IMG/VR virus record: IMGVR_UViG_3300025395_000038
Coordinates: 1 to 23,823 of that record
Strand: one strand, 5' to 3'
DNA from: a virus
DNA length: 23,823 nt
Shown: piece after piece, positions 2,068-13,899 of the stretch
Numbering within the stretch: position 1 is the first letter of the stretch
How the letters are laid out: each line of letters starts with the position of its first letter
The notes under the pieces: model-generated
The model's database searches: none
What the model was told of the DNA's origin: nothing
What the model saw: the letters and a program-made list of their open reading frames with translations, nothing else
Position numbers and translations under genes: made by a program

Positions 2068-2336
2068 TGGCCAAGTTTTCTCACAAGAAAATGGGTAAAG
2101 AAGTGGGCTCTGCAGAAGAGTACGCTCAGCCCCACGGTAAGGCTAACAAACAGCCTAACCTGAAAGACCCCAACAAGCTGTTGGCCGGTCAGTTCAAACC
2201 TGGTGCAGAGAAGCAAGGCACTCCTCGCGTGAGCTTGGGCGATCCTGCTGATCCTGATTTGGAAACCCAAGGCGTTAAGATTCGCGGCACTGGTGCGGCT
2301 ACTAAGGGTCTGTACGCCCGAGGCCCGATGGCATGA
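2067..2336 (+). CDS. Small conserved-type phage protein
   Basis: This 89-aa basic protein is rich in Lys, Gly and Pro, with no membrane segment. Its C-terminus (GVKIRGTGAATKGLYARGPM) resembles small proteins found between adaptor genes in other phages. It starts at the TAATG junction with the gene before and ends in an ATGA overlap with adaptor 2. That tight coupling supports it as a real late gene. Its function is unknown; a minor virion or assembly protein is the best guess. Confidence 0.65.
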   Translation: MAKFSHKKMGKEVGSAEEYAQPHGKANKQPNLKDPNKLLAGQFKPGAEKQGTPRVSLGDPADPDLETQGVKIRGTGAATKGLYARGPMA

Positions 2337-3430
2337 ATTACTATCAGCTCGTAACTGCTGTTCAAGACTACACGGAGAATACCTTTTCGACGGTAGACAT
2401 AAACACGTTTATCGAGCAGGCAGAGCAGCGGATCTACAACGACATTCAGTTTCCTTCGCTGCGTAAAAATGTTACCGGTACAGTAAGTTCGTCCAACCCC
2501 TACCTATCCGCCCCGGCGGACTATTTGTCTACCTATTCGCTGGCTGCATATTCCACGTTCAGTACAACAGCTACGGGTACATCGGGCACGAATGTCATTA
2601 GTGTCTCAAGCGCCAGCGGAATCGCCATCGGGCAAAACGTCACGGGTACAGGTATTGGTTCAGGTGCAATCGTCTACGGCGTCAACGGCACAAGCATTAC
2701 GCTGAGCGTGGTCAACACTGGTACAGTATCCGGTACAGTTAGCTTCCAAGGCGCGTATCAGTACCTGCTGAACAAGGACGTTAACTTCATCCGCGAAGCG
2801 TTCCCCTACCCGTCTGTGTCCGGATTCCCCACACACTACGCCATCTTTGGCCCTCAGTCTGCAGCACCTAACGAGTTGTCGTTCATGGTTGGCCCAACGC
2901 CCGATCAAAACTACGGTGTTGAGCTGCACTACTTCTTCTACCCACCGTCGATCATTCCGGGCATTATCATCAGTTTGAACAGTTCTTTCACTGCTGGTTC
3001 AGGGTATACCAATGGAACGTATTACAACCAAGCTTTGACTGGTGGTACAGGTTCTGGCGCTACTGCAAATATTGTGGTGTCTGGTGGTGCGGTGACTTCT
3101 GTCAGTTTAGAAACGGGAGGGTCTGGTTATGCCGTGGGAGATTCTTTATCTATTAGCCTTGGCAGTGGCGGTGGGTTTGCCGTTACTGTTCCCAACGCAG
3201 CCAGCTTGAACCAAACTAACGGCATGACTTGGCTTGGTGACAACTACGATGCAGCCCTGCTGTACGGCGCTTTGGTTGAAGCCATCACCTTCATGAAAGG
3301 CGAACAAGATTTGGTTCAGTTGTACAACGGCAAGTATGTTGAAGCACTTGCACAAGCCAAACGTCTGGGCGATGGTCTGGAACGTCAGGATGCTTTCCGC
3401 AGCGGTCAATACCGTCAGAAGGTCGAGTAA
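2333..3430 (+). CDS. Head-tail adaptor protein 2 with two inserted beta-rich domains
   Basis: This 365-aa protein has the phage adaptor core. The N-terminal helices (TFIEQAEQRIYNDIQFPSLR) are followed by YQYLLNKDVNFIREAFPYP, GPTPDQNYGVELHYFFYPP, WLGDNYDAALLYGALVEA and a C-terminal DAFRSGQYR. Two extra modules interrupt the core. Residues ~78-139 carry NVISVSSASGIAIGQNVTGT and resemble an Ig-like phage module. Residues ~212-290 are a Gly-rich module with two GSGY motifs (AGSGYTNGTYYNQ, GGSGYAVGD). The start overlaps the upstream stop (ATGA). It probably acts with adaptor 1 in head completion or tail joining. Confidence 0.75.
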   Translation: MNYYQLVTAVQDYTENTFSTVDINTFIEQAEQRIYNDIQFPSLRKNVTGTVSSSNPYLSAPADYLSTYSLAAYSTFSTTATGTSGTNVISVSSASGIAIGQNVTGTGIGSGAIVYGVNGTSITLSVVNTGTVSGTVSFQGAYQYLLNKDVNFIREAFPYPSVSGFPTHYAIFGPQSAAPNELSFMVGPTPDQNYGVELHYFFYPPSIIPGIIISLNSSFTAGSGYTNGTYYNQALTGGTGSGATANIVVSGGAVTSVSLETGGSGYAVGDSLSISLGSGGGFAVTVPNAASLNQTNGMTWLGDNYDAALLYGALVEAITFMKGEQDLVQLYNGKYVEALAQAKRLGDGLERQDAFRSGQYRQKVE

Positions 3431-3433
3431 TAG

Positions 3434-3856
3434 ATGTCAATCCTTCAAGGCCAGACGACGAGTTTCAAGGTTGGGCTGTACAACGGTCAGTTCAATCTTG
3501 CGTCCGATACCATCAAAATGGCGCTGTATACAGGCAACGCCAATTTAAACCCCAGCACTACTGCGTACTCAAGCACCAACGAAGTATCAGGCACAGGCTA
3601 CACCGCTGGCGGTCAAACCATGACGGGCGTGACAATTAGCTACGACGCAACAAACAGCGTGGCGTACGTTAACTTTAACAACGTGGTTTGGAACCCTGCC
3701 AACTTTACGGCACGGTGTGCTTTGATTTATGATGCTACGGCCTCCAATGCTTCGATTGCTGTGATTGATTTTGGTTCAGACAAGACCTGCACCAATACGT
3801 TTACGGTAACCATGCCAGCCAATACTTACTCAACTGCGCTGATTCGGAGCGCATAA
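3434..3856 (+). CDS. Small virion-type beta-rich protein
   Basis: This 140-aa protein is rich in Thr, Asn and aromatic residues, with no signal peptide or membrane segment. It contains KMALYTGNANLNPSTTAY, YTAGGQTMTGVTISY and CALIYDATASN, a pattern seen in small proteins of unknown function encoded near phage adaptor and tail genes. The ATG lies three nt after the preceding stop. A decoration or minor tail protein is plausible, but no specific role can be assigned. Confidence 0.65.
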   Translation: MSILQGQTTSFKVGLYNGQFNLASDTIKMALYTGNANLNPSTTAYSSTNEVSGTGYTAGGQTMTGVTISYDATNSVAYVNFNNVVWNPANFTARCALIYDATASNASIAVIDFGSDKTCTNTFTVTMPANTYSTALIRSA

Positions 3857-3865
3857 GGAAATACC

Positions 3866-4447
3866 ATGAACCATGTTGAAACACTGAATGTCCAAGATGC
3901 TCCTAGCGCATCGGTCACTGTTGGCACAAAAGCCAAGGAACAAATGACCATCGTCGGTCGTTTTACCGCTACCTGTTACGACTCTAAAGGCAACGTCAAA
4001 TGGGTTGAGAACTTCCCCAACTTGGTTGTGAACGTCGGTAAAGCCGATATGTTGAACAAGTATTTTGCTGGTTCTTCGTACACTTCCGCTTGGTACTTGG
4101 GTCTGGTTAACACCGGCCCTACATACAACGCTGCCGACACGATGGCCTCTCACGCTGGCTGGACTGAAGTTACCGCTTATTCCAACTCTACTCGTCCTGC
4201 TGCTGGCTTTACCGCCAACGCGACTGGCACTGGTGGCGGCGCTGGTACTGCTGGTACTGGTTCTATTTCTACCCCTGCTACTGCGTTCAACATCAACGGT
4301 ACTGCTACCGTGGCCGGTGCGTTTTTGACCACCAACAGCACTATCTCTGGCACGACTGGTACGCTGTTCTCGGCGGGTAGTTTTGGTACTGCCCGTTCTG
4401 TTTTGTCTGGTGACGTGCTGAACGTTACTTGGACTGGCAACAACTAA
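3866..4447 (+). CDS. Structural-type phage protein with Gly/Thr-rich C-terminus
   Basis: The 193-aa product begins with a likely ordered domain: FTATCYDSKGNVKWVENFPN, GKADMLNKYFAGSSYTSAWY and LGLVNTGPTYNAADTMASH. The region from about residue 105 is dominated by Gly, Thr, Ala and Ser and is probably beta-rich or flexible. The start is set by AAGGAA just upstream (3856-3861). Similar proteins occur beside tail genes in many phages, so a minor tail or appendage protein is likely. No enzyme motif is present. Confidence 0.65.
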   Translation: MNHVETLNVQDAPSASVTVGTKAKEQMTIVGRFTATCYDSKGNVKWVENFPNLVVNVGKADMLNKYFAGSSYTSAWYLGLVNTGPTYNAADTMASHAGWTEVTAYSNSTRPAAGFTANATGTGGGAGTAGTGSISTPATAFNINGTATVAGAFLTTNSTISGTTGTLFSAGSFGTARSVLSGDVLNVTWTGNN

Positions 4448-4456
4448 GGACTCAAT

Positions 4457-4636
4457 ATGGCTGCAAATTTTAAAGTTGGCGAAGTCGTCAAACTGGTGGC
4501 TACGATTCCTACTGGCCCCGTGGAAGAGCTGCGCTTGGACTCAGCTGGAAATATTTCCTACCTTGTGCAGTGGACTGATGCAGAAGGTAACCCACAGCAA
4601 ACTTGGTTCCCAGAGGCAGACCTAGCGGCTGCTTAA
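4457..4636 (+). CDS. 59-aa YodC/DUF2158-like small protein
   Basis: A short gene with its own SD (AAGGA, 4445-4449) fills the gap between two larger genes. The product begins MAANFKVGEVVKLVA, continues with YLVQWTDAEG and ends TWFPEADLAAA. The layout of a VGxVVxLxS-like strand, a central W and a terminal FPxxxL resembles the small YodC/DUF2158 family, thought to form an SH3-like barrel. The role in phage is unknown. The stop lies three bases before the next ATG. Confidence 0.6.
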   Translation: MAANFKVGEVVKLVATIPTGPVEELRLDSAGNISYLVQWTDAEGNPQQTWFPEADLAAA

Positions 4637-4639
4637 CCC

Positions 4640-5728
4640 ATGTCGGCAACGGGCGGCTGGGGATCAGGATGGTGGGGTCAGGCCGGTTGGAGTAGATCGG
4701 TCTTTGATAACTCGACTTCTGAAACAGCCACTGTTACCGACTCTGAATCCTCGGCTCAGTCTTTTGCCAGCTCGGTCAGCGAAACAGCCACAGTAACCAC
4801 TTCTCAATCGGGGCAGACTGTCTACGCCAGCGCGGTATCAGAAACCGCCACAGTAACTGATTCTGAATCAAATACGCTTGTGATGAACATGAGCGTGAGC
4901 GAAACCGCCACAGTAACGGATACAGAAACCCCATCCAACGTCATTAGCGCAACGGTCACTGAGGTGGCTACGGTAACGGATACCGAGACCAATACGATGG
5001 TCATGAATGCGTCGGTCTCTGAGACTGCGACGGTAACGGACTCCGAAACTGGGGGCGTGGTCTACGCCAGTAGCGTATCTGAAACGGCAACGGTAACTGA
5101 CTCCAACTCTGCTACCCTGACAATGAACATGTCGGTCAGTGAGACCTCTGTGGTCACAGATACGGTTACGCCTTCCAACGTGATGGGCGCTTCTGTAACT
5201 GAGGTGGCGACGGTAACGGATTCTGAATCGGTGCAAGCGATCTTTAACCCTACGCTGACCGAAACGGCCACTGTAACTGACTCCCAGTTCGGTGGTAATA
5301 TTTACAACAATACGCTGACTGAGACTGCGACAATTACGGATGCCGTCAATGGGGTCAATAGCCTACCTGCCTCTGTGGTGGAGACGGCGACTGTAACGGA
5401 TAGCGTTACACCCTCGAATGTGATTCAGGCTGCAGTGACTGAGACAGCGACGGTAACGGACGTTTGGGCTTCTTACCTTGTTATGATGGCGAACGTGATT
5501 GAGACGGCTACGATGGCTGACTCGTTCTTGGGTGCGCTGCTGTGGAATCCGATCCCTGACAACCAAACGCCGAACTGGTCACAAATAAATGATTCTCAAA
5601 CGGTAACATGGGCAAATATTAGTGACAACCAAACTCCGAACTGGCAAAATGTTAACGATGCTCAGTCGGTAACGTGGTCGCAGGTTGATACCGCGCAAAC
5701 CAGAACTTGGACTCAGACGAAGAATTGA
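4640..5728 (+). CDS. Tandem-repeat protein, candidate appendage or adhesin
   Basis: This 362-aa protein has three parts. The first is a Trp-Gly-rich head (GGWGSGWWGQAGWS, residues 5-18). Fourteen 20-residue repeats follow (27-306), each starting with a variant of SETATVTDS. The last part is five 11-residue repeats (307-362) of the type DNQTPNWSQIN. There are no Cys residues, membrane segments or enzyme motifs. The Thr/Val/Ser-rich repeats suggest an extended beta-structure. Lying directly upstream of the fibre region, it is most likely an elongated virion appendage, though this is inference. There is no strong SD, so translation is probably coupled to the gene ending at 4636. Confidence 0.75.
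   Translation: MSATGGWGSGWWGQAGWSRSVFDNSTSETATVTDSESSAQSFASSVSETATVTTSQSGQTVYASAVSETATVTDSESNTLVMNMSVSETATVTDTETPSNVISATVTEVATVTDTETNTMVMNASVSETATVTDSETGGVVYASSVSETATVTDSNSATLTMNMSVSETSVVTDTVTPSNVMGASVTEVATVTDSESVQAIFNPTLTETATVTDSQFGGNIYNNTLTETATITDAVNGVNSLPASVVETATVTDSVTPSNVIQAAVTETATVTDVWASYLVMMANVIETATMADSFLGALLWNPIPDNQTPNWSQINDSQTVTWANISDNQTPNWQNVNDAQSVTWSQVDTAQTRTWTQTKN
4718..5557 (+). repeat. 14 tandem 60-bp (20-aa) repeats with a 240-bp higher-order period
   Basis: Each unit begins with a variant of (S/T)ETATVTD and runs exactly 60 bp without indels. Every fourth unit shares a second signature. Units 4, 8 and 12 (starting 4898, 5138, 5378) carry TPSNV. Units 2, 6 and 10 carry a Gly then Tyr pattern (SGQTVY, TGGVVY, FGGNIY). 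Units 3 and 7 carry MNMSV. This shows an 80-aa super-repeat made by duplication of a four-unit block. Third-position differences between copies show the array is not very recent. Confidence 0.85.
5558..5725 (+). repeat. Five 11-residue repeats (33 bp) at the end of the repeat protein
   Basis: Units read DNQTPNWSQIN, DSQTVTWANIS, DNQTPNWQNVN, DAQSVTWSQVD and a final degenerate TAQTRTWTQTKN. The invariant Gln at position 3 and Trp at position 7 mark the register. Alternation of PNW and VTW gives a 22-residue super-period. The family differs from the 20-residue repeats before it. Confidence 0.8.
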
Positions 5729-5729
5729 A

Positions 5730-6398
5730 ATGCAGGTGTACAAGATTACCAACACTGTTAATGGGCATGCTTACGTAGGCATTACCCAGTGCGACCTGCA
5801 CAAACGGTGGCGGGAACATCAGTGCGCTGCCCGAACTAATAAGATGCAACGTCTATACAGGGCTATGCGCAAATACGGTGTAGAGAATTTCACCATTGAA
5901 GCCTTATGCCAAGCTGCTGATGAACAAGAACTCAAAGCGCTAGAACGCAAATACATTGCTGAGCTAAATACCTATGCTGGTAACGGCAACGGTTACAACT
6001 TAACAGACGGTGGCGACGGCCCTCTGAGGTTTAGCCTGAAGACGGGCGAAAAAGTCTATAACGCCAAGTTGACCGAAGAGGTTGTGGCTTTTATCCGGCT
6101 GGACGAAAACCGTACATTGAACAACCGAGAATTGCTTGAGTTGGTCAAAGAAAAGTTTGGAATTTTGTGCGCACGGGATACACTACGGGATGCGCGTCGT
6201 GGTGATGCTTGGGCACATTTAAATGAAAAGTATCCCCCGGTACGTGTTGGTCAAGGTGGAAACAAGAAACCTACGGAAGAAGCAATTCAAAGGTCAATTA
6301 CAGCTTTGCACAAATACCGCCCGATGGCAAACGCAAAGCTCAGAGAAAATACTGCAAAGCGACAAAGATTAGCAAAGGAAATTAGTCATGGCAATTAA
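5730..6398 (+). CDS. Free-standing GIY-YIG homing endonuclease
   Basis: The 222-aa protein starts with a GIY-YIG nuclease domain (residues 1-95) closely patterned on I-TevI: VYKITN...AYVGI, catalytic-type Arg26 in KRWREH, and the metal-binding Glu72 in LERKYIAELN. Residues ~112-163 (from KLTEEVVAFIR to WAHL) look like the helix-turn-helix DNA-binding segment attached to many homing endonucleases. The remaining tail is Lys/Arg-rich. The ATG at 5730 is preferred over an upstream ATG at 5685, because the nuclease fold begins at MQVYKITN and the longer start would run into the repeat gene. A-rich codon use differs from neighbouring genes, consistent with transfer. The end overlaps the fibre start by 11 nt. 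Confidence 0.85.
   Translation: MQVYKITNTVNGHAYVGITQCDLHKRWREHQCAARTNKMQRLYRAMRKYGVENFTIEALCQAADEQELKALERKYIAELNTYAGNGNGYNLTDGGDGPLRFSLKTGEKVYNAKLTEEVVAFIRLDENRTLNNRELLELVKEKFGILCARDTLRDARRGDAWAHLNEKYPPVRVGQGGNKKPTEEAIQRSITALHKYRPMANAKLRENTAKRQRLAKEISHGN
6375..6387 (+). promoter_or_regulatory. Ribosome binding site of the fibre gene inside the endonuclease gene
   Basis: AAGGA (6375-6379) lies eight nt before the fibre ATG at 6388, within the last codons of the GIY-YIG gene. The fibre initiation region therefore doubles as endonuclease coding sequence. Confidence 0.6.
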
Positions 6399-8514
6399 CT
6401 ACACTTCTCTACTGGCCTTAATTCAGCCGGTAGATGGAACAGAAGTTTCGGTTTGGGGCGATGATGTAAACAACGGCGTTTCGTCTATTCTGGATGTTGC
6501 TGTTGCCGGTACACAGAACATTACGACCGATGCCAACGTCACGCTGACCATCACACAGGCGACCAGCTCGGGCACTAACCTTTCCGGCACTTCAGCCCAA
6601 TACGCCATTCTCCTGCTGTCCGGCGCACGCACTGCAACACGCACGATTACTCTGCCCGCTTCGAGCAAGACCTATACGGTCATGAACAGCACCACTGGCG
6701 GCTACGCCCAGACGGTTGGTGGCTTGACTATTGCAGTCGGTGAAGTGGCTAAGATCGTTTACAACATCTCGACCTCGGCTTGGGTTAAGGCGTCTACGTT
6801 CAGCGGTGCGGGTACGTTCTCGACTGTTACGGCTACTGCAGCTACCACTGCTTCGTCCAACCTCGGTGCGTACAACTACGGCACGTTGAATTTCAGCGAC
6901 ACGGGCATCGTTCAATCTGCTCAGACTAGCGTTAACAGCTACTTCCAGAACGTCATCCAAAATACCAGCAACGGTACTGCGGCATCTGCTGAGTTTATTG
7001 CATATAACGACCAAGGCACGGCCACAACCAACTACGCTACGGTTGGTATCAACTCAAGCGGTTATAGCGGCACAGGCTCAATCAATGCGCCCGGTTATGG
7101 TTACTTCTTAACTGCCTCTACGGACTTGGTGCTGGGTACGATTGGCGCTAACGGTATTCACTTTACGACAAACAGTTCTGCTACGGATGCGCTGGCTATC
7201 AGTTCTGCTGGTGCGGTGTCTTTACCGGGCGGCACAGCCAACGGTGTAGCCTATTTGAACGGCTCTAAGGTGCTGACTACGGGTTCTGCGCTGACGTTTG
7301 ATGGGACAAACTTAGGTTTAAGTTCGGGGAATATTTTTGTCCCCACGACTTCGGGCGTTTTCTTTTCTTCGCCCGGAACCTTTGTGAATGGCGTATACGG
7401 TGTAGGAACCAATAACGTAGCATTTAATGCCAACGGCTCCGAACAAATGCGCCTGACCAGCACAGGTCTGGGTATTGGGACAAGTTCGCCTTCTTATAAG
7501 CTGGATGTAAATGGTTCTGGCAACATTATTCGAGCCATAAATTCATCAACAAGCTCTGCTTTTATACTCTCTACCAACTCAGGGGCAAGTAGTATTCTTG
7601 TCATGGGTAATGAGTCAACGACTGCGGGGTCGTCTGCAACAGGCTCTGCCTCTTACGCAGGTCTTTTGTTTACTACTGGATCAAAGCCGTTACAGTTTGG
7701 AACGAATAGCACTATTCAGGCAACCCTCGATACATCCGGCAACCTAGGACTAGGGGTTACGCCTAGTGCTTGGAGTGCGTACAAAGCGATTCAAGTTAAC
7801 ACAGGCTTAACGGCATATAGCAGCGGTACTGGGGGCGATAGCGGCTTAACACACAACGCATATTATAACGGTGCAAATTGGATATACATTGGAACTGGTT
7901 ATGCCACACAGTACGATATGTACCTAGGCGCACATCGTTGGTATTCTGCTGGCTCTGGTTCTGCTGGCGGAACCATCTCCTTTACCCAAGCAATGACGCT
8001 GGATAACAGCGGGAATTTGTTGGTGGGAGCTACGAGTGCTTTTAATACATCTCGTGCAACTTTTACATCTCAAGCTAATAATACTATTGCGGCAGTTCAA
8101 GGAACCGCTGGTGGATACTGTTTTGTTTCAAGCGCTTTATCAAATGGCGGTACGTATTATCATTGCTCTTTTACTGAGAACGGAACTCAACGTGGTTCTA
8201 TTACTTCAAACGGGTCAGTAACTGCTTACAACATTACTTCTGACCAACGCCTAAAAGAAAACATCGTTGACGCTGATACAGCCTCAAATTTGATAGATGC
8301 TTTACAAGTACGCCAGTTTGATTGGAAATCAGACGGTTCACATCAGCGTTATGGTTTTGTGGCTCAAGAACTTGTGGCCGTGGCTCCAGAGGCCGTACAC
8401 CAACCAGCAGACCCAGAAGAAATGATGGCTGTGGACTACTCCAAACTTGTCCCCATGCTGGTTAAAGAAATCCAATCCCTCCGTGCCCGCCTCAAAGCGG
8501 CAAACATTGCTTAA
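6388..8514 (+). CDS. Tail fibre with C-terminal peptidase S74 intramolecular chaperone
   Basis: This 708-aa protein opens with a segment seen in many phage fibres (LIQPVDGTEVSVWGDDVNNG). A long Ser/Thr/Gly-rich shaft follows, with repeated blocks of the form LGIGTSSPSYKLDV (near residue 362), LGLGVTPSAW and LLVGATSAF. The end (SDQRLKENIVDAD, then FDWKSDGSHQRYGFVAQEL and VDYSKLVPMLVKEIQSLRAR) is a peptidase S74 / endosialidase-type chaperone. In that family the domain assists trimerisation and cuts itself off at a conserved Ser. Here Ser618-Asp619 is the expected site, releasing ~90 residues. It is the main candidate for receptor binding. Confidence 0.88.
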   Translation: MAINYTSLLALIQPVDGTEVSVWGDDVNNGVSSILDVAVAGTQNITTDANVTLTITQATSSGTNLSGTSAQYAILLLSGARTATRTITLPASSKTYTVMNSTTGGYAQTVGGLTIAVGEVAKIVYNISTSAWVKASTFSGAGTFSTVTATAATTASSNLGAYNYGTLNFSDTGIVQSAQTSVNSYFQNVIQNTSNGTAASAEFIAYNDQGTATTNYATVGINSSGYSGTGSINAPGYGYFLTASTDLVLGTIGANGIHFTTNSSATDALAISSAGAVSLPGGTANGVAYLNGSKVLTTGSALTFDGTNLGLSSGNIFVPTTSGVFFSSPGTFVNGVYGVGTNNVAFNANGSEQMRLTSTGLGIGTSSPSYKLDVNGSGNIIRAINSSTSSAFILSTNSGASSILVMGNESTTAGSSATGSASYAGLLFTTGSKPLQFGTNSTIQATLDTSGNLGLGVTPSAWSAYKAIQVNTGLTAYSSGTGGDSGLTHNAYYNGANWIYIGTGYATQYDMYLGAHRWYSAGSGSAGGTISFTQAMTLDNSGNLLVGATSAFNTSRATFTSQANNTIAAVQGTAGGYCFVSSALSNGGTYYHCSFTENGTQRGSITSNGSVTAYNITSDQRLKENIVDADTASNLIDALQVRQFDWKSDGSHQRYGFVAQELVAVAPEAVHQPADPEEMMAVDYSKLVPMLVKEIQSLRARLKAANIA

Positions 8515-8533: not shown

Positions 8534-9175
8534 ATGTCAGCGGCAGACCCCCAAGGAAAACGTGCAATCGCCAAGCAAAACGGCGATAAGACGTACTTTA
8601 CGGGTGTGCCCTGCAAACGTGGTCACTTGGCTCCTCGCTATACGTCTATGGGGATTTGCGTAACTTGTAAACAAGAAACTTTTGCAAGAAGGTATGTCAA
8701 AGACAGAGAGAAAGTGTTAGCAGAAGGTCGAGCATGGAAAGATGCCAACGCAGAACGTATGATGGAATACGCTAAAAAGTACCGTCAAGACAACATTGAA
8801 AGAATTAGAGCAAGAGACCGAAAAGATGGTCAAGAAAATCGAGCGTACTACACCAGCATGGAACGCAAGCGGCAAGCAAACAAACTGCAAGCAACGCCCA
8901 AATGGTTGACGCAAGATGATTGGCAATACATTCATTCTGTTTACTTAACCGCCAAAAAAATACAAGAACAGTCCGGTATGAAAATGGCGGTTGACCACAT
9001 AGTCCCATTGCAGGGGAAAACGGTTTCCGGCTTGCACGTTCCTTGGAATTTGCGGGTCATTAGTTGTAGTGAAAATTCTCGCAAACACGCCGCATTAAAC
9101 GATGATGCGTATTTGCCTAAACAAATAGGTGTAATGGTCGGGCAGTCCGGCCTGCCTTGGAACTGGAGTATTTAA
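8534..9175 (+). CDS. HNH endonuclease with N-terminal zinc-binding motif
   Basis: The 213-aa protein carries an HNH core at its C-terminus: VDHIVPLQGK with Asp154-His155, then GLHVPWNL with His168 and Asn172, and Asn181 in SCSENSRKH. Near the N-terminus Cys27, His31, Cys42 and Cys45 (VPCKRGH...ICVTCKQ) form a probable zinc site often paired with this HNH type. The middle is a charged Arg/Lys/Glu-rich helix (~50-125). The start has GAAAGG eight to nine nt upstream. Codons are A-rich compared with the structural genes. It is probably a free-standing homing nuclease; a packaging-linked HNH role is less likely this far from a terminase. Confidence 0.85.
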   Translation: MSAADPQGKRAIAKQNGDKTYFTGVPCKRGHLAPRYTSMGICVTCKQETFARRYVKDREKVLAEGRAWKDANAERMMEYAKKYRQDNIERIRARDRKDGQENRAYYTSMERKRQANKLQATPKWLTQDDWQYIHSVYLTAKKIQEQSGMKMAVDHIVPLQGKTVSGLHVPWNLRVISCSENSRKHAALNDDAYLPKQIGVMVGQSGLPWNWSI

Positions 9176-11901: not shown

Positions 11902-13899
11902 ATGGCCCTAATTAAGCTCCAATTCTCACCGGGTATCAATAAAGAAATCACGACGCTCGGTGGTAAGGGGGGCTGGTTTGCGTGCAACAACGTGCGCTTT
12001 CGCTTTGGCGTTGCTGAAAAACTAGGTGGCTGGACAGCGGACAATGGGGTAACTTCCTCTACGCTAAAACCCACAACGGGCAGCTACTGGGGTATTGCTA
12101 AGTCTCTTTTCAGCTGGGCCAGCCTTTCTGGGTTTAACCTGATGGGCATTGGTACTAACGTCAAGTACTACATCCAGAACGGCAACGGCGGCATGTTTTA
12201 TGACGTAACGCCTATTACTACGACCACCTCGGCGGGGGCAATTACTTTTTCTGCTTCTAACGGCTCGACAACCCTTACTGTTAATAGTTCCACTGCGCTG
12301 ACGATTACAGCGAACACATTTGTGACTTTCAGTGGTGCAGCCAGTCTGGGTGGTAATATTACCAGCACGATCCTGAACGCTGAGTTCCAGATCACCAAAG
12401 TCGTTAGTAATACGCAGTTCCAGGTAGTCATGTCTGTTGCTGCGAATTCCAGCGATACAGGCACGGGCGGCAGTTCAACGGTTGGTGCTTTCCAATTAAA
12501 CGCTGGGCCGACTCAGTATTCGGTCGGTGTGGGTTGGGGCGCTGGTGGTTGGGGCGGCAGTACTCCGGGCTTTGCGTCTACCGGCTGGGGTCAGTCTACG
12601 GGCGGCTATCAACTGCGCTTGTGGAGCCAGTCTAACTACGGTGAAAACTTGGTCATGAACCCCCGTGGCGGGGCTCTGTACTACTGGGTGACCTCCTCGT
12701 CGCCCTCAAGCTTCTACCGTGCACAAGTTCTTTCAAACAGCAATACCAACTATTTCAATGGCGATGCAGGGAACGCGCAGTATTGGAAAACAGATACTGC
12801 CTGCCCGACCATTGCTAACTTTGTGCTTGTTTCTGACCAGTCTCGGTTTGTGATTGCGTTTGGCACAGATAACAACGGCAACGGCACTCAAGACCCCATG
12901 CTGGTCTCTTGGTCAGACCAGTCAGATATCTTGACGTGGACACCTCAATCAGGCAACCAAGCCGGTAACTACCGCCTCTCTCAAGGCTCTTCAATCATTA
13001 CAGCCGTTCAAGCCCGCCAAGAAATTTTGGTGTGGTCGGATACCTCGCTGTATTCCATGCAGTACCTTGGGCCACCGTATGTGTGGGGCTTCCAGATCAT
13101 GGGCTCCAACGTGTCCATCGTCTCGCCTAACGCTCGGGTGGTGGCAAACAACAACGTCTACTGGATGGGTGTTGACAAGTTCTACATGTATAACGGTACG
13201 GTTCAAACGCTGCCGAGTACCTTGCGTAAATACGTGTTTGAAAATATCAACATGCAGCAAGCGTTCCAGATTTTTGCGGGCTCCAATGAGGGCTTCAGTG
13301 AAGTTTGGTGGTACTACTGCTCGGCAAACTCAAACACCATCGACAGCTATGTGATCTACAACTACGTGGATAACACTTGGGCCTACGGCTCGATGGCTCG
13401 TACGGCATGGACTTACAGCCCCCTGCGCGGCCTGCCAGTGGCAACGGGATATAGCAACGGCGGCAGCACCAGTGGTAACCTGATTTATCACGAATCTGGA
13501 GTGGATGATGGCACAACTAACCCCGCTTCTCCTATCAATGCTTACATCCAATCATCCGACTTCGATATTGGTGATGGTGACAAGTATGGGTTTGCTTGGC
13601 GCATGATTCCTGACGTATCGTTTGATGGCTCAAACGTGAATGATCCGTCCATGTATATGACGCTGCTGCCTCGTCAAAACCCCGGCGCTGCTTACAGCAC
13701 CACTATTTACCCAACGGTTGCCAGCACCCAAGACTACACAGCCGCGCCTTTTTACGGCACACAGCAGTTCACCCAACAGATCAACATTCGGGTGCGCGGT
13801 CGTCAGATTGCGGCGGTGTTCGGTTCCAACACGCTGGGCACGCAGTGGCAATTAGGAGTTGCCAGAATGGATGTGCGTCTTGATGGCCGCCGAAGCTAG
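11902..13899 (+). CDS. P22 gp10-like tail nozzle / packaged-DNA stabilisation protein
   Basis: The 665-aa protein opens with LQFSPGINKEITTLGGKGGW, a hallmark-like start of the phage stabilisation (gp10) family. Characteristic later segments are WSDQSDILTWTPQSGNQAG, VYWMGVDKFYMYNGTVQTLP and VRGRQIAAVFGS. The family forms the nozzle part of the short tail, below the adaptor ring. Residues ~108-196 form a beta-rich inserted module (TFSASNGSTTLTVNSST, then SLGGNITSTILNAEFQI). Residues 211-230 are a Trp-Gly-rich patch. It follows the lysis cassette by nine nt and begins the second group of virion genes. Confidence 0.85.
   Translation: MALIKLQFSPGINKEITTLGGKGGWFACNNVRFRFGVAEKLGGWTADNGVTSSTLKPTTGSYWGIAKSLFSWASLSGFNLMGIGTNVKYYIQNGNGGMFYDVTPITTTTSAGAITFSASNGSTTLTVNSSTALTITANTFVTFSGAASLGGNITSTILNAEFQITKVVSNTQFQVVMSVAANSSDTGTGGSSTVGAFQLNAGPTQYSVGVGWGAGGWGGSTPGFASTGWGQSTGGYQLRLWSQSNYGENLVMNPRGGALYYWVTSSSPSSFYRAQVLSNSNTNYFNGDAGNAQYWKTDTACPTIANFVLVSDQSRFVIAFGTDNNGNGTQDPMLVSWSDQSDILTWTPQSGNQAGNYRLSQGSSIITAVQARQEILVWSDTSLYSMQYLGPPYVWGFQIMGSNVSIVSPNARVVANNNVYWMGVDKFYMYNGTVQTLPSTLRKYVFENINMQQAFQIFAGSNEGFSEVWWYYCSANSNTIDSYVIYNYVDNTWAYGSMARTAWTYSPLRGLPVATGYSNGGSTSGNLIYHESGVDDGTTNPASPINAYIQSSDFDIGDGDKYGFAWRMIPDVSFDGSNVNDPSMYMTLLPRQNPGAAYSTTIYPTVASTQDYTAAPFYGTQQFTQQINIRVRGRQIAAVFGSNTLGTQWQLGVARMDVRLDGRRS

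Follow-up and report, generated by a model that had tools for sequence, protein, structure and literature searches.

The window analyzed here is the whole of a 23,823-nt stretch of viral DNA (IMG/VR record IMGVR_UViG_3300025395_000038, positions 1 to 23,823). It carries the gene of a repeat protein, hereafter REP, among genes for virion structural and tail-fibre proteins (Table 1).

Table 1. Features of the window around the REP gene, in gene order, with the basis of each assignment
Feature	Coordinates	Strand	Basis
adaptB, virion structural protein, adaptor-like by position	2333..3430	+	phrog_2941, E = 3.4e-13; 100 of 113 loci
phrog_644 protein, usual upstream neighbour	3434..3856	+	E = 3.4e-23; 101 of 113 loci
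phrog_8123 protein, context, missing in some relatives	3866..4447	+	PHROGs; 22 of 113 loci
59-aa protein, context	4457..4636	+	weak DUF2158-like match, below cut-off
REP, repeat protein, 362 aa, pI 4.05	4640..5728	+	ORF, dN/dS, composition
REP N-terminal cap, aromatic triplet W7-x4-W12-x4-W17 (GGWGSGWWGQAGW)	4640..4711	+	pattern common in relatives
REP rod, 14 x 20-aa units	4712..5551	+	unit alignment, family consensus
REP C-terminal Gln/Trp tail, 11-aa repeat (22-aa pairs)	5552..5725	+	Trp spacing, matches to relatives
GIY-YIG endonuclease, outside the REP system	5730..6398	+	Pfam GIY-YIG, E = 7e-10
Tail-fibre gene, conserved N-terminal domain plus S74 (endosialidase) chaperone	6388..8514	+	Pfam PF13884, E = 1.4e-13; PHROG tail fibre
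"Stabilization"/nozzle-type virion structural protein, context	11902..13899	+	phrog_3287, E = 5.4e-56

The rod spans residues 25-304 (from nt 4712), and its 14 units are each exactly 20 aa long with no indels, in agreement with the fourteen uninterrupted 60-bp units of the original prediction. Among the lags scanned, amino acid self-identity exceeds 0.25 solely at multiples of 20 (0.40-0.56). The rod contains 33 Asp/Glu residues and no Lys or Arg. The switch to a paired Gln/Trp repeat at the C-terminus, also predicted, is equally regular, with Trp at residues 302, 313, 324, 335, 346, and 357 at a spacing of exactly 11 and an alternation in 22-aa pairs (DNQTPNW...DxQ[ST]VTW). The most alike units have 41 of 60 nt in common, so the tandem array is old and holds no recent tandem copy. 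A Pfam search found no Peptidase_S74 domain in REP; this domain is present in the adjoining fibre gene.

The cap contains an SGTWG motif (window 4658-4690; GSGTWGQ in several relatives), which also occurs in the N-terminal domains of fibres encoded 3' of REP in related loci (NSGTWGQ / ESGTWGD) and may be a shared docking motif or a chance likeness. Elsewhere in the window, the phrog_3287 protein has a stretch akin to the REP GW cap (GVGWGAGGWGG...GWGQSTGG) that departs from the strict triplet; this protein is 37% identical, over its full length, to the stabilization protein of phage DSL-LC04. At 1-402, the window edge truncates an ORF, whose remaining C-terminal part contains a long repeat rich in Ala and Gln (TRF periods 18 and 24).

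Scans of IMG/VR confirmed 246 relatives with the window REP as query, 225 with gp68 of HTVC027P, and 115 with WJZ48131 of DSL-LC04, three sets that may overlap. From the best 80 of each scan, 193 distinct proteins were drawn and compared. An aromatic triplet ([WFY]-small-x3 repeated, with W/F every 5 aa) lies within the first 90 residues of 153 of the 184 distinct 5'-complete relatives, against 1.4 expected from shuffles. At the other end, 391 of 472 counted tail Trp intervals are 11 aa, and W-x10-W is found within the last 90 aa of 120 of 183 3'-complete relatives (18.6 expected). Both features are present in the window REP, as the W7/W12/W17 triplet and as the Trp tail from W302 to W357, at 11-aa spacing after [LV]W. 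Across the family, the modules stay combined even where overall similarity is low.

Between these ends, the rod occurs in different types. The first consists of exact 20-aa units with the consensus SVSETAT-x-TDSVSA-x3-F-x2 (419 units; Glu4 in 88%, Asp10 in 81%), and the second of 22-aa units of the TGVSATGSVGTVTV type. Both carry the same N-terminal aromatic triplet and C-terminal 11-aa Trp spacing, and these shared ends, together with an alignment by eye, suggest that one fold may be common to both. A third type was observed in one locus (L047:4897-6240), where SLYTNTQTFYSATV repeats of about 22-25 aa precede a small number of TGV-type units and a Trp tail of the usual kind. Nine relatives, each over 800 aa, have a large extra N-terminal part, mostly of the YWVGGTGNW type. 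In seven loci (L013, L021, L024, L025, L026, L029, and L045), the rod and Trp tail stand behind very large N-terminal domains; these fusions measure 1162 to 2479 aa and carry a YWVGGTGNW...W motif. Taken by itself, the tail matches distant relatives with 42-63% identity and is the most widely conserved module of the family, while the N-terminus, rod type, and rod length vary.

The earlier remark that no nameable phage protein matches REP holds for Pfam, PHROGs, NCBIfam, and PDB sequences. The first three gave only sub-threshold or composition-driven matches to REP (4HB_MCP, SurA), and a profile search against PDB sequences gave none. The sole match above the Pfam cut-off among the relatives, Spt5 CTD in L018, was rejected as due to the T-P-x-W composition of the tail. 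Repetitive proteins are already known among phage appendages, and no literature naming this protein was found; REP belongs to a large aquatic-phage family whose modular architecture appears undescribed in the sources searchable here. Bacterial genomes yielded a single match (L088), a 22-aa-type REP with its fibre gene at about 3000-6970 of CP070693.1, the Dehalococcoidia MAG bin61. This phage fragment is flanked by runs of N inside apparently bacterial genes on the opposite strand, an arrangement suggestive of faulty scaffolding rather than of a prophage.

Gene order around REP was assessed with iterated profiles in loci picked via REP, and the counts hence describe the surroundings of REP only. 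A fibre N-terminal domain was found in the gene 3' of REP in all 119 loci with at least 2.5 kb downstream, and in 163 loci in total (weakest E 7.6e-18), with a median gap of 32 bp. Upstream, an adaptor, phrog_644, or phrog_8123 gene is present in 102 of 113 loci, the phrog_644 gene lying a median of 17 bp before the REP open frame. The same order is seen in the cultured HTVC027P and in DSL-LC04. This adjacency shows a functional linkage between REP and the fibre, as distinct from physical contact. Such fibres in general do not require REP, as judged from the Roseobacter phages CRP-902 and CRP-603 and from MW202675, in which a phrog_644 homologue is directly followed by the fibre gene.

An appendage role had been proposed from the position of REP immediately before endonuclease and fibre genes. 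The fibre part of this argument is upheld by the invariant place directly before the tail-fibre gene, but the endonuclease is meaningless as a clue: the GIY-YIG gene is missing from L003, L004, L005, and L008, where REP adjoins the fibre gene, and was therefore rejected as part of the system; it is a mobile insertion. In L009, the GIY-YIG copy is 97% identical to that of the window, against only 34% for the adjoining fibre and 70% for REP; this contrast suggests recent mobility. A further HNH-like gene, named by eye and with no Pfam match above cut-off, follows the fibre gene (window 8534-9175); distant copies (34-35%) lie between adaptB and phrog_644 in L003, L005, L006, and L008.

The original prediction held that the length of the rod can change by recombination, and its proposed comparison of repeat number in related phages revealed rods of about 10 to at least 28 units. 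Differences come as whole units. The REP of L005 has 18 units against 14 in the window, a difference of exactly 80 aa, and in L008 and L009 the tail is shorter by precisely one 22-aa pair. Recombination inside the gene is visible in the nucleotide identity of single units, which between the window and L003 is 93-100% in units 11-14 and 47-55% in units 3-4. Between the window and L006, it is 92-100% in most units, with exceptions in unit 5 (73%), unit 6 (83%), and unit 11 (58%). This patchiness reflects swapping at the scale of a single unit, and in the family single units as well as blocks are gained, lost, and exchanged. The gene as a whole is under purifying selection. With a dN/dS of 0.16-0.18 in comparisons of the window with relatives that are about 75-79% identical, REP is an ordinary constrained gene evolving at a pace like that of its phrog_8123 neighbour (0.14-0.17); adaptB has 0.05-0.09.

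A first AF2 model (28 sequences) placed strands along the whole rod at a mean pLDDT of 53.8 and was set aside as too weak. A second model of units 9-14 and the tail (76 sequences) reached pLDDT 70-82 in the units and mostly below 50 in the tail, with two predicted strands per unit (residues 1-6 and 9-18). AlphaFold2 is prone to invent solenoids for sequence repeats, 20-residue units being among those tested (Pratt et al., PMC11795689). Even positions of the unit consensus are largely hydrophobic; the exceptions, Glu4 and Asp10, could sit on the same face. Given both the bias of AF2 and these two acidic residues, a parallel beta-solenoid of stacked coils, one per unit, is only a candidate for the rod. 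Foldseek searches of the PDB with the model gave nothing significant (best E 0.15 for FapC; 0.42 for CsgA). VIA-align matched the AF2 model to beta-helix proteins with Z up to 11.2, a value to be read with the solenoid bias of AF2 for repeats in mind (PMC11795689), and to CsgA with Z 10.8 but an rmsd of 8.8 over 101 residues. Such resemblances in fold, to the CAP C-terminal domain, pectate lyase, CsgA, and ice-binding proteins, were dropped as evidence of identity, since the second model improved on the first in the units but not in the tail. Calcium binding by Glu4 and Asp10 was likewise dropped, as the 22-aa relatives have Thr/Gly there in an alignment by eye. The predicted fold can be described no further than as "beta-rich".

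Most likely, REP is a rod-like part of the phage host-contact apparatus, and it is probably a structural component of the tail-fibre cassette in podovirus-like aquatic phages. A connector or stalk is favoured by the unvarying association with the fibre, by the constancy of the tail, and by a rod of adjustable length. Such a protein would be carried in the virion as a beta-rich, very acidic, and elongated element acting together with the tail fibre, the product of the next gene. At its N-terminus would stand a short aromatic cap (a large fused domain in some relatives), and the number of 20- or 22-aa repeats would set its length. The constant C-terminal Trp tail would most likely serve for docking, either to the particle or to the fibre/phrog_644 module. 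As whole units are gained, lost, and swapped, probably by in-frame homologous recombination, the protein would change in length and surface.

Tail fibres mostly keep the attachment end constant and vary at the distal end. The C-terminal tail is suggested as the docking end of REP because it is the conserved end; taken singly, this assignment is tentative. A more far-reaching version would make REP a new class of appendage part, a length-adjustable mosaic connector with a constant fibre neighbour and inverted polarity (the C-terminal Trp ladder docking, the variable N-terminus distal), with one fold common to the 20-aa acidic and the 22-aa Gly/Val-rich repeats. In this full form, the proposal is rather doubtful.

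The connector reading has to be weighed against REP being itself a receptor-binding or adhesive short side fibre, with its own tip and parallel to the S74 fibre, which is unlikely. In such a fibre, the variable halves of the units and the N-terminus would touch the host surface. The exchange of units between phages and the large additional N-terminal domain of some relatives would fit this role, as would the faster evolution of the variable half of the unit (dN/dS 0.15-0.28, against about 0.11 in the constant half; 0.28 against 0.105 between the window and L003). These values for the variable half are nevertheless no sign of positive selection, and searches of Pfam, PHROGs, and NCBIfam gave no match to a receptor- or sugar-binding domain. 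Moreover, most tail fibres have their tip at the C-terminus, and in REP it is this end that is best conserved.

It is less likely still that REP acts outside the virion, on the infected cell, for instance as an adhesin or a self-assembling amyloid-like fibre, and is encoded among late genes by chance. This would be in line with the beta-rich 20-22 aa repeats, the weak and non-significant fold resemblance to FapC and CsgA, and the curli-type genes reported in HTVC023P-type pelagiphages (PMC9599517). The latter phages, however, carry these genes alongside their own csgF/csgG secretion genes (PMC9599517), and none were seen beside REP, which occupies a strict slot in the structural cassette between the adaptor/phrog_644 and fibre genes. 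The unit also lacks the conserved Gln/Asn positions of the curli type, as neither Gln nor Asn exceeds 23% anywhere in the consensus of 419 units.

The signatures on which the four-unit block was proposed are present, namely TPSNV in units 4, 8, and 12 and Gly...Tyr in units 2, 6, and 10. Self-comparison of REP gave higher identity at a lag of 80 aa than at 20 aa (0.555 vs. 0.496), and likewise at 240 bp than at 60 bp (0.560 vs. 0.527), so the self-alignment outcome that the original prediction named as refuting did not occur. The lag-4 excess has p ~0.0035 in shuffles of unit order and p 0.03 after correction over lags 2-7. It is borne chiefly by units 2-4/6-8 and unit 12: pairs 2/6, 3/7, 4/8, and 8/12 are alike at 14-16 of 20 residues, and pairs 1/5, 7/11, 9/13, and 10/14 at just 6-8. 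The near-identical L006 shows the pattern of the window (p 0.004-0.005 for the two). Five relatives at about 75-79% identity to the window REP (L003, L004, L007, L008, and L009) have the SNV-type unit at 3/8/12 instead of 4/8/12 and no significant lag-4 signal (p 0.06-0.20), and none was significant in distant relatives with 9-27 contiguous units.

The 80-aa super-repeat is thus real but weak and is confined to the window phage and near-identical ones; the block stands for the window, where few pairs carry the excess, and is no property of the family. It reads as the product of block copying followed by reshuffling rather than as a conserved second level of architecture. That the block was designed as such a level, with four units per superhelical turn kept by selection, is very improbable: the excess in the window and L006 and the difference of exactly four units in L005 would agree with it, but the restriction to few pairs, the shifted SNV units, the lack of signal in distant relatives, and total unit counts that are not multiples of four all go against it.

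Many uncultured phages of lakes and the sea carry REP, among them relatives of a cultured SAR11 phage, and the family has neither a name nor a profile. Its tight pairing with the fibre offers a concrete target for work on how fibres are held and deployed in common podoviruses of aquatic habitats, and its modular rod is a good natural case of length evolution through unit exchange. gp68 of HTVC027P offers a cultured handle for such work.

Among known systems, curli CsgA and FapC resemble REP in repeat length (near 20-22 aa) and in the two strands that the model gives each repeat, but REP has no match among PDB sequences and no Gln/Asn ladder, and its rod is very acidic and free of Lys and Arg. 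The tail fibres with S74 chaperones are repetitive as well and are encoded next door; unlike them, REP has neither the S74 domain nor a match to the fibre N-terminal profile, and it is a neighbour of such a fibre rather than one itself. The single cultured member of the family is the hypothetical protein gp68 (QGZ17849.1) of the Pelagibacter podovirus HTVC027P, which occupies the same slot, with the phrog_644 homologue gp67 upstream and the tail gene gp69 downstream. It has the N-terminal W-x4-W-x4-W cap, degenerate repeats, and an ALIWNQI...GWREV end. It differs from REP in its three GW caps along the protein and in the TGV-like character of its degenerate repeats, and it shares with its subgroup a shorter tail with only two Trp, 15 rather than 11 apart. 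The hypothetical protein WJZ48131.1 of DSL-LC04, a phage metagenome-assembled from Dishui Lake, has several caps and a 22-aa TGVxATGxxGxVxV rod in place of the 20-aa ETATVTD rod, but shares with REP the GW cap type, the Gln/Trp tail at 11-aa spacing, the phrog_644 homologue upstream, and the S74-type gene downstream.
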